DNA of 64,000 nt from Chitinivibrionales bacterium (GTDB lineage Bacteria; Fibrobacterota; Chitinivibrionia; Chitinivibrionales; FEN-1185), in assembly GCA_035516255.1 (NCBI GenBank), contig DATJAL010000002.1, positions 1-64,000 of the forward strand. Reading direction: 5' to 3'. A program made the translations under genes and the position numbers. Positions 1-34,913 of the stretch are shown piece after piece. Position 1 is the first letter of the stretch; each line of letters opens with the position of its first letter. The notes under the pieces are model-generated. The model saw only the letters and a list, made by a program, of their open reading frames with translations. It did not search any database and had not been told where the DNA came from.

Positions 1-135
1 TCCGATCTCAAGGCAAATATTTCTGATCTCATTATCAACCTCTTTGCTAAAAACAACTTTTCTGTATTTTGCTGGACAGACAAAGTGATAAAGCAAAACC
101 GAGACATTATGACTCTTATGTATATATTCGCTCAT
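1..135 (-). CDS. tnpA: IS200/IS605-family transposase TnpA, N-terminal part (runs off the window)
   Basis: Reading the minus strand from the ATG at 135 gives 45 codons open to the window edge, starting MSEYIHKSHNVSVLLYHFVC followed by PAKYRK. The pattern 'HNV..L.YH.V...KYR' is the N-terminal signature of the Y1 (HUH) single-strand transposases of IS200/IS605; the catalytic HUH pair and tyrosine would lie beyond the edge. These enzymes cut and rejoin single-stranded ends that fold into hairpins, and a perfect small hairpin sits 20 bp upstream of the start. Whether the gene is intact cannot be judged here. A RAYT (REP-associated) relative is the main alternative. Confidence 0.85.
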   Translation of the reverse strand, partial: MSEYIHKSHNVSVLLYHFVCPAKYRKVVFSKEVDNEIRNICLEIG

Positions 136-32699: not shown

Positions 32700-32859
32700 A
32701 ATTTACGGGGGAGAAGTATCTCCCCGGCCGCGGCCTCCTCGTCCGCAAAGAGCGGGACTGCGGGGTCCTCGGCACTCCCCTCTCCTTCAGCTGCAAGCTG
32801 CACACATCCGCTGGGCGCACCCGCGGAAAGTAGCTGAAAAGCGTTCCAATACAGTTGAT
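32700..32859 (-). repeat. Hairpin-rich conserved element, copy B
   Basis: Non-coding. On the minus strand it carries, in order, ATCAACTG (32859-32852), GGGTGCGCCCAGCGGA (32822-32807), GCTTGCAGC (32798-32790), GAGGACC (32770-32764), GGCCGCGGC (32735-32727) and a closing hairpin of the type GGGGAGA-TACT-TCTCCCC (32725-32707). All six blocks recur in the same order in copy A at 34727-34900 on the plus strand. The block 2 sequence folds with its flanks into TCCGCGGG/CCC(A)GCGGA. The element starts 16 bp after the stop of the REC-PP2C gene; strand is arbitrary, and a 3'-UTR element reading plus is equally possible. Confidence 0.6.
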
Positions 32860-32886
32860 CAAACCTTTTTATTTTGGTGAATGAAT

Positions 32887-34488
32887 TCACCTTTTACACA
32901 ACATTTTTACATCATCGACAAATAATTTTATCTCTCTGTCTTTCTTTGTCCTTATCTCCACGTCGATTTCCTTTCCCGATCCCGGCACCGCTTCGAGCGG
33001 CAGGGATATGCTTGTCCAGTCTGCAAACGCATAGTCCGTGTATTTTCCCGCCTTTGCAGGTGAAAAGTCCTCGCCTTTGAAATACGTCCATTTTTTATCA
33101 TCGGCCCATTTCATGCGGAAACAAAGACTGCCGCTCCCGCGGATAACCATTGTCAAGGCAGCCTGCCCGCCTTGCGCCGGAACAGCCATTCTGCCGCGCG
33201 CGGCGGAGGCGTTTTCCTTTGCTCTTCCTGAAATTTTAAGACAGTATTTTCCCGCATGCGGATTCACGGTGTCCCTGGTTACCTTCACCTGCTTGACGCA
33301 TGAGACCCAGCACTCTGCACCGTCTTCAAACCCACCCACTACTCCCGACACGGCCTTCGAAGTAATTTCTCCGGTGTCAAGACTGTCGGGCCGGTAGGCG
33401 CACCTGCAGAACCTGGCAACGACCGGCAAATGGTCGGAATACCCTTCCCCTGCATGGTATCGCGCGTTCTTGACGTAGCGCATCTGCCACCGGTACGGCG
33501 CGCCGCCCTTGAGTAGGCGGCCGTTCCACGTGAACGCATAAAATGAATGGTTGACATACGAGATGCCCGCCGCATCGAACATGGACGCGGGGAGCAGAAT
33601 GTGATCGGGCGTTTCCGGCCTGCCCTTGAACATAGTGCTGAGCCGACGCGCCTCCGGCTGTTCGAGCCATGTATCATACATGCCGGGGGCACCCGCCCTA
33701 AGCGCTTTTTTCTGCGTAAAGGCAACAAACTGCATTGGCTTTGAAGAAACTGTTCCTAATACATGGTTGAGCCCCGTTTCACCCCTGGTGTCGTCCCCGC
33801 CCATGGTATGGAACGTTTCGCATTCATCATAATCCTCGTTGAAATCGCCCGCTACCACATAGTCTTTCCCTTTTGGCAACTCGGCCAGACGCTGCTCGAG
33901 CAGCCTGGCATTTTCGAGCCTGGCCGATTCCTTGTGCAGTTTAGAGGGCCAGTGGCAGGCGAACACGGCAAGCGTGTCGCGGCCGAGGAAAATGTCGGCC
34001 CGCAGCATGTTCCTGTTGTACGCTGCCGCATCGACGGCGACGCCGAAACTTGTTTCCGACAGCACCGGAAATTTGGACAGGACAACGGGCATCACGCTGC
34101 CCCTGTTGGCATGGCCTCCCAGCGCATAAAACGGATAAGCGCATTTTTTCTCCTTAAGGACTTTGCAGAGCCCCTGAACCGCGTTCTCGTTTTCCACTTC
34201 GACAAGCACCGCGATGTCGGCATTCATTGCCGCAAGCACCGACGCGATGTTGTTGAGCTTGATCTCATAGGTGTTTTCGTTCCAGTTGTACTGGCCGGGT
34301 TTGTACTCGTCGTATTCGGTTCCGTTGTCAACCATGTCGAACAGGTTTTCAACGTTGTAGGAGACGAGGGTGACCGTGTCGGGGATGGTGCCGGTGAATT
34401 TTTGGGGCATGCCGATGCGGTCGGGCTTTTGCTGGCAGGATAATAAAAGGAGGAGAATTGCCGCAATTAAAATCCGTTGAAACATCAT
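32887..34488 (-). CDS. Lipoprotein with endonuclease/exonuclease/phosphatase domain
   Basis: 533 residues. Signal sequence with a lipobox 'LLLSC' (Cys18). Residues 38-370 form the EEP fold: 'SYNVENLFD', the metal-binding glutamate in 'VLVEVEN', 'ACHWPSK', 'VVAGDFNEDYDE' and the catalytic 'YSDHLPVVA'. 370-533 is a beta-rich domain that could be a carbohydrate-binding jelly roll. EEP proteins cleave phosphodiesters or phosphomonoesters (nucleic acids, lipids or sugar phosphates); the surface location suggests extracellular DNA or phospholipid, but the substrate is unknown. The gene is flanked on both sides by copies of one hairpin-rich element. Confidence 0.88.
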   Translation of the reverse strand: MMFQRILIAAILLLLLSCQQKPDRIGMPQKFTGTIPDTVTLVSYNVENLFDMVDNGTEYDEYKPGQYNWNENTYEIKLNNIASVLAAMNADIAVLVEVENENAVQGLCKVLKEKKCAYPFYALGGHANRGSVMPVVLSKFPVLSETSFGVAVDAAAYNRNMLRADIFLGRDTLAVFACHWPSKLHKESARLENARLLEQRLAELPKGKDYVVAGDFNEDYDECETFHTMGGDDTRGETGLNHVLGTVSSKPMQFVAFTQKKALRAGAPGMYDTWLEQPEARRLSTMFKGRPETPDHILLPASMFDAAGISYVNHSFYAFTWNGRLLKGGAPYRWQMRYVKNARYHAGEGYSDHLPVVARFCRCAYRPDSLDTGEITSKAVSGVVGGFEDGAECWVSCVKQVKVTRDTVNPHAGKYCLKISGRAKENASAARGRMAVPAQGGQAALTMVIRGSGSLCFRMKWADDKKWTYFKGEDFSPAKAGKYTDYAFADWTSISLPLEAVPGSGKEIDVEIRTKKDREIKLFVDDVKMLCKR

Positions 34489-34726
34489 GATTAAAATATA
34501 CTATGAGGTTATGAAGGATATTTTCCTAGAAAACTCAATTTATAAATCACGCAAAACAAACTCGAGACTTTTATTTCGTCAGCACGGTTGATGAACCGAA
34601 AAATATTTTTATCCTTAGAGGACTTTGACATTAATCAACTTATTTTGATTCTAAAAAGGTCACTAACGGTACTGGCTGGAATAATGAAATCCTGCATCAG
34701 TTAAATCAAAATCCCCCTCATTTTTT

Positions 34727-34900
34727 ATCAACTGCTGTGTCAAGGGTGCGCCCAGCGGAGGGTTCGGGCTTGCAGCCGTTGGTACCTGGCTGCACCCGGG
34801 AGGGGGTAGCAGAGGACCGGGCGCGCGAATTTACGGATACGATATCCCTGAAAAAAGGTGGAACGCGACCGGGCCGCAGCAAGGGGGAAACCTCCCCCCC
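34727..34900 (+). repeat. Hairpin-rich conserved element, copy A
   Basis: Blocks ATCAACTG (34727-34734), GGGTGCGCCCAGCGGA (34744-34759), GCTTGCAGC (34768-34776), GAGGACC (34812-34818), GGCCGCAGC (34872-34880) and the closing GGGGG..CCCCC hairpin (34883-34900) match copy B in order. A further stem GCAGCC/GGCTGC (34772-34792) and GGATA/TATCC (about 34835-34848) also fold. No ORF of interest overlaps. It ends 13 bp before the stop of the ACP gene on the opposite strand. The rest of the 425-bp gap (34489-34726) is AT-rich with nothing recognised beyond a likely promoter for the EEP lipoprotein. Confidence 0.6.
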
Positions 34901-34913
34901 ATGAATCATTATT

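Follow-up and report, generated by a model that had tools for sequence, protein, structure and literature searches.

The window, that is, the whole 64-kb stretch of DNA that was analyzed, carries two copies (A and B) of a structured repeat, located on both sides of an Exo_endo_phos-family gene (Table 1). In copy A the last hairpin (P3) ends approximately 15 nt away from the stop codon of a PP-binding gene that runs against the element; in copy B the distance from P3 to the stop codon of a response-regulator gene, likewise in opposing orientation, is 22 nt. Both copies and their opposite orientation, as given in the preliminary description, were confirmed by reading the sequence and by two covariance models, for which A and B were the sole element copies in the window. 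Model R1 represents the shared 5′ domain and was obtained from 42 copies, copy A being part of its training alignment; model R2 represents the full unit of the sister species G001 and was built from 18 copies of that species alone, and its matches to the window copies are therefore independent. Copy A was matched by R1 at 34723-34806 (+; E 4e-21, 91 bits) and by R2 at 34731-34901 (+; E 6e-18, 78 bits), and copy B by R1 at 32842-32778 (-; E 1e-4) and by R2 at 32834-32706 (-; E 6e-7).

The element is about 130-215 nt long and consists of three hairpins, P1, P2 and P3, preceded by a leader. On the element strand the order from 5′ to 3′ is leader, P1, GAGGGGG, P2 and P3, and both the order of the hairpins and the orientation of the modules are fixed across copies. 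P1 is lineage-specific, with GGGTGC...GCACCC in the genus of the window and GGGGCGTTGCGGGG...CCCCGCA in other families; P2 (GTAGCGGARGAC-hairpin-GGCYGNAGCGA, with a GTAG inside the element at its foot) and P3 (GGGGGAAACYTCCCCC) are common to the whole phylum. Several kinds of middle module were found in the genome of the window, with TAGCGGAGGACCGG..., GAGGACCCCGCAGTCCCGC... or GATCGCCGCCGCC..., or having an extra GCCCGCCCAAC..AAGGGCGG arm, and some copies have no middle module and consist of P1 and P3 alone. At one site of this genome (G000 C10:40166) P2 is missing while it is present at the orthologous G001 site (C41:69845), and the gap lies between GGGGG runs. Additionally, in the G001 C35 spacer (L239), orthologous to G000 C9:6528, the place of the element is taken by a hairpin unit that is related to it but composed of other modules (GGATCGCCGGCGCACAGCGCCGGAAGCC...), which is a module exchange at one site.

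Table 1. The two element copies and the neighboring genes in the 64-kb window.
Feature	Position	Strand	Evidence
Copy A, complete element (leader, P1, P2, P3)	34723..34901	+	R1 and R2 matches
Copy A P1: GGGTGCGCCC (34744-34753) paired with GGCTGCACCC (34788-34797), loop with CTTGCA	34744..34797	+	A1 consensus structure, sequence
Copy A P2 module: TAGCAGAGGACC...GGGCCGCAGCAA, long variable tip	34807..34882	+	R2 alignment, P2 covariation
Copy A P3: GGGGGAAACCTCCCCCC	34883..34899	+	Sequence, context table
Copy B, degenerate (leader and P1 5′ arm kept, P1 3′ arm lost)	32706..32842	-	R1 and R2 matches
Copy B P1 5′ arm (GGGTGCGCCC)	32813..32822	-	Sequence
Copy B P3 (GGGGAGATACTTCTCCCCC)	32707..32725	-	Sequence, context table
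Neighbor: Response_reg + SpoIIE phosphatase gene, stop faces copy B P3	31533..32684	+	Pfam
Gene between the copies: Exo_endo_phos family, lipoprotein-like signal	32887..34488	-	Pfam, ORF
Neighbor: PP-binding (acyl-carrier-like) gene, stop faces copy A P3	34914..35204	-	Pfam

Among the sequence blocks reported as shared by the two copies, GGGTGCGCCCAGCGGA, CTTGCAGC, GAGGACC, GGCCGCRGC and the final G/C hairpin were recovered when the sequence was read. The block ATCAACTG of copy B (about 32859) is a coincidence and not a homologous leader, since R1 aligned the leader of copy A with TTCAGCTACTTTCCGC of copy B (to 32842). Copy B is degenerate: its first hairpin has lost the 3′ arm, which reads GGTACCCGGCCGCACCC in relatives, and its middle module differs from that of copy A; the unequal spacers between the blocks of the two copies are explained by these two differences.

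Using R1, and therefore the 5′ domain, 72 copies were found in the 4.28-Mb genome of the window (61 contigs); these and all other copy counts are lower bounds, with 20-150 candidates scored per genome. Copies were located by covariance-model matches instead of regular-expression searches, which gave many false palindromic matches. Chance, which had been contemplated at the outset along with simple similarity between GC-rich hairpins, is excluded because the 213-nt copy A used as a blastn query gave 42 matches in its own genome, and because the 15-mer GGTGCGCCCAGCGGA occurs 15 times there and 0 times reversed (0 occurrences were also found in 60 related genomes). As regards the gene between copies A and B, Pfam supported its assignment to the Exo_endo_phos family, and its flanking by the element is incidental, since the 5′ domain occurs at 72 places dispersed throughout the genome. 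A separate consensus characterizes the sister species G001, and 28 copies were detected in it with R1 and at least 42 with R2. Matches to R2 were present in 21 of the 40 genomes of the order, with up to about 70 copies each, and in 123 of the 168 genomes of the phylum, corresponding to 20 of its 41 genera; the genomes without any R2 match served as internal negatives. More than 60 copies were counted in genome G032, several of them lying where a contig stops, which points to recent and nearly identical copies, and the upstream part of the G032 copies is a different, longer and AT-rich domain.

None of the 4227 Rfam families matched the 64-kb window at the gathering score, nothing was obtained at E≤5 for the element region, and the loci of 11 relatives gave matches only far below the gathering score and nothing credible. 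A published description of this repeat family was not found in a search that covered mainly open literature, and this absence is no proof of novelty. Plasmid and phage records gave zero element matches, and three exact-pattern matches on two contigs were obtained in IMG/VR. A GC-rich predicted provirus (IMGVR_UViG_2781125683_000001) carries two copies (L261:5390-5480 and L260:330-420), one of them within a 751-aa reading frame that remains open across the copy and matches phage head proteins weakly, and the other beginning directly behind a stop codon. When genome contigs were scanned with a pattern of the P1 core, 17 single matches were retrieved, mostly in GC-rich Actinobacteria, and were read as chance.

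The preliminary description had also proposed a search for covarying stems, and these were seen in shuffle and anchor-based counts, above all in P2. In the G001 structure, pairing was observed in 96.9% of the cells, with 35 double changes versus 12 in shuffled alignments (0 of 500 reached the observed number), P2 contributing foremost. The tip of P2 had 71 different sequences among 77 copies, as counted from anchors with no structural alignment, and was Watson-Crick paired in 84.4% versus 36.6% when shuffled and 26-33% when slid. In a phylum-wide set of 54 sequences, whose model-fitted alignment is biased toward the model structure, 95.8% were paired versus 72.4% when shuffled, and double changes were found in P1, P2 and P3. 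The P1 core of the window's own genome showed zero covariation in the A1 consensus alignment, since it hardly varies there. This strong covariation, together with the many copies and the lack of an Rfam match, bears out the original impression of an unrecognized, repeated and structured family.

The nature of the folded strand was also considered. G-U pairs in the P2 tip showed no clear excess over A-C (16 versus 12 in the anchor-based count), and these low and balanced numbers do not point to RNA; taken with the 31 versus 17 that another method gave for the G000 P2 stem, they provide no clear signal for the choice of strand. A caution on the pairing is that template switching of DNA can also give rise to perfect palindromes. 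The comparison of folding energy between the element and its reverse complement was mixed, P2-P3 of G000 favoring the element strand and P1 of G001 the opposite one. Purine-purine mismatches (GGA/GNA) are conserved in P2 on one strand only, which would fit an RNA or a single-stranded-DNA motif on the element strand. A site of DNA architecture, like the BIMEs bound by gyrase or IHF, at which a protein would bind the duplex or a cruciform and organize supercoiling between genes, would agree with numerous intergenic GC-rich palindromes having perfect stems and few G-U pairs. It is nevertheless improbable in view of a P2 tip that is free in sequence, so that only the conserved foot could be sequence-specific, of the lack of a known binding protein and of a copy number that varies between 0 and about 70 among the genomes of a single order.

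The occupation of orthologous sites was compared between the two sister genomes by blast of the flanking proteins. Five sites carry the element in both. Among the other G000 loci, the first 14-15 were tested by searching pieces of the flanking proteins in G001, and at nine of these loci both neighbors were close together in G001, none with the element. The spacers with and without the element measured 186/33 nt (element of 156 nt), 356/194 nt (170 nt), 315/122 nt (174 nt) and 421/238 nt (167 nt), and, with other sequence differences too, 430/180 nt (160 nt) and 545/259 nt (170 nt); at two of the nine loci (C16:148817 and C61:4534) the spacer was longer in G001. The first three of these pairs are the simplest, the G001 spacer being shorter by roughly the length of one element, and C9:6528, where G001 has the related hairpin unit, is also among the nine. 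The flanking DNA of C29:16205 could be aligned up to the edge of the element. These presence/absence differences between the sisters are probably insertions rather than deletions, two events that such a comparison does not separate formally. The target-duplicated ends hoped for in the preliminary description were looked for at both element boundaries, and neither a target-site duplication nor a fixed target motif was seen; terminal inverted repeats across the unit and conserved or duplicated flanks were likewise absent.

The position of the element relative to genes was analyzed in 95 full copies from the two sister genomes, with genes called by a codon-usage script. Only 3 of these copies overlapped a called gene by >20 nt. 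In 64 copies an opposing gene had its stop codon ≤60 nt from the P3 end (median distance about 20), and in 4 the other end of the element was near a co-directional stop codon, a 64:4 bias with p about 2e-16. The adjacency to stop codons noticed at copies A and B is thus a strong directional trend in this genus and not a general one in the phylum, since 28 copies of other genera were placed before a gene start and 23 facing a stop codon. Such a pronounced bias in orientation may reflect selection for function. In several f8 genomes (L174, L176, L177, L181, L184, and L186), copies precede, by 130-160 nt, a gene encoding 340-344 aa, probably one orthologous site that has been kept for long; these conserved positions and the five sites shared by the sisters also fit long-term retention for function. 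A U-run after P3 was absent in the genus of the window, where T amounted to 6-25% in G000 and 5-20% in G001 over the first five positions, and P3 is therefore not an ordinary intrinsic terminator here; T reached 61-66% at positions 1-2 after P3 in other genera.

The main rival to a mobile repeat is an RNA element that acts in cis at the 3′ ends of mRNAs and is kept by selection. Its hairpins, transcribed together with the neighboring gene or in the direction opposite to it, would terminate transcription, hold up 3′ exonucleases or shield converging genes from each other. The bias at stop codons, the strong covariation, the one-strand mismatches of P2 and the T following P3 in many copies of other genera would all agree with it. 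We consider it rather unlikely, since copies of other genera are unbiased, P3 has no U-run in the genus of the window, G-U does not exceed A-C in the P2 tip and the nine tested sites are not common to the sister species. Such a role of the RNA would in any case be compatible with a mobile origin. Far less probable is that the copies are a family of small-RNA genes, each driven by its own promoter in the direction of the adjacent stop codon: no conserved promoter-like sequence was found upstream, about 70 similar copies occur in one genome, and neither a U-run terminator in the genus of the window nor an Rfam match was detected, against which can be set the covarying stems, the one strand preferred by the mismatch pattern and the long 5′ spacers, which could hold promoters.

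An enzyme responsible for mobilization was also sought. The Y1_Tnp loci from eight genomes were not flanked by the element, the nearest copy being 3.4 kb away, and copies were present in two genomes (G050 and G014) with zero Y1_Tnp matches; a RAYT partner was rejected on these grounds. The Y1_Tnp genes L145 (G000 C16:70097-70333) and L144 (G001 C33:25060) are flanked by short palindromes of their own (CGACCTTCAGGTCGGG; AACCCCAACGGGGTT, and others) and look like ordinary REP/RAYT pairs, distinct from the element studied here. The window itself contains a fragment of a Y1_Tnp transposase gene at 4-105 (-), truncated by the contig end. The window's own genome gave no reverse transcriptase, no copy with an internal transposase was seen, and a parent IS was not found. 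An attC-like site was also considered, and a matching core motif was not seen. A different multi-copy hairpin, GGGTGCGGGT...GGTGCCCACCCGC, was observed in AT-rich surroundings in G035 (L058, L062), and seems to represent another repeat family with no relation to the element.

The preliminary description had left three readings side by side, namely, a small RNA, a 3′-UTR element and a mobile element. The mobile one is best supported, by the polymorphism of sites between the sisters, the swapping of modules and the species-specific consensus, and positive evidence for the small RNA was not obtained. We therefore consider it probable, at roughly 0.6, that the family is a non-autonomous and mosaic mobile palindromic repeat of REP/BIME or MITE type, extending over the phylum. 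The unit is a string of hairpins, P1-P2-P3, which behave as modules that copies exchange, acquire or lose, and P2 can drop out cleanly between the GGGGG runs flanking it. A putative enzyme would copy the unit into new intergenic places, presumably by recognizing, on one strand, the foot and stem that are conserved in P2/P3, with hairpins of single-stranded DNA as the proposed substrate. In the genus of the window, insertions would persist mostly with P3 some tens of bases past a stop codon, where they would have a low cost, become part of the 3′ flank and perhaps affect the neighboring mRNA. An improbable variant is an ancient, phylum-bound structured RNA that is itself mobile through the folded RNA or a single strand, with a constant P2 foot and P3, a sequence-free tip, an exchangeable P1 and targeting of gene 3′ ends in some lineages. 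Since the element forms the 3′ flank of dozens of genes of this genus in one orientation, its effect on mRNA ends is directly testable. The family is new for catalogs of RNAs and repeats, and constitutes a useful marker for annotation and typing.

Compared with known systems, the element is a multi-copy extragenic palindrome with a common consensus, as REPs are, its 72 core copies being nearly all intergenic. It shares with the GTAG-type REPs the multi-copy intergenic hairpins often near stop codons, a conserved GTAG before P2 and compensatory stem changes, and differs from them in having 130-215 nt and three hairpins versus 20-40 nt (PMC3733652). GTAG repeats have been recorded in Proteobacteria, Cyanobacteria, Chloroflexi and PVC, Fibrobacter not being mentioned (PMC3733652). 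A REP unit ends with GTAG, whereas the GTAG of this element is internal; moreover, a fixed GGA/GNA internal loop, the absence of a flanked RAYT gene and the phylum-wide span are not features of those REPs. Like the BIMEs of enterobacteria, the element is an intergenic mosaic of palindromic modules that varies from copy to copy, but its order P1-P2-P3 is fixed and directional, with no regularly alternating REPs and no known binding protein (PMC2817692). MITEs and other non-autonomous IS derivatives are similarly short, non-coding and present or absent at orthologous sites, but the element has no terminal inverted repeats, target-site duplication or parent IS. Since its size and the lack of a RAYT partner and of target duplications set it apart, it is described as a new variant of REP, BIME or MITE. 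With the structured RNA families of Rfam it shares conserved covarying stems, although no family matched at the gathering score. As a rule, REP-like repeats are confined to a lineage and associated with a RAYT transposase. In the present family, a single constant P2-P3 module extends across most genomes of the phylum with a lineage-specific P1 and no RAYT beside it, and the family is therefore a good case for studying how hairpin repeats spread and persist.
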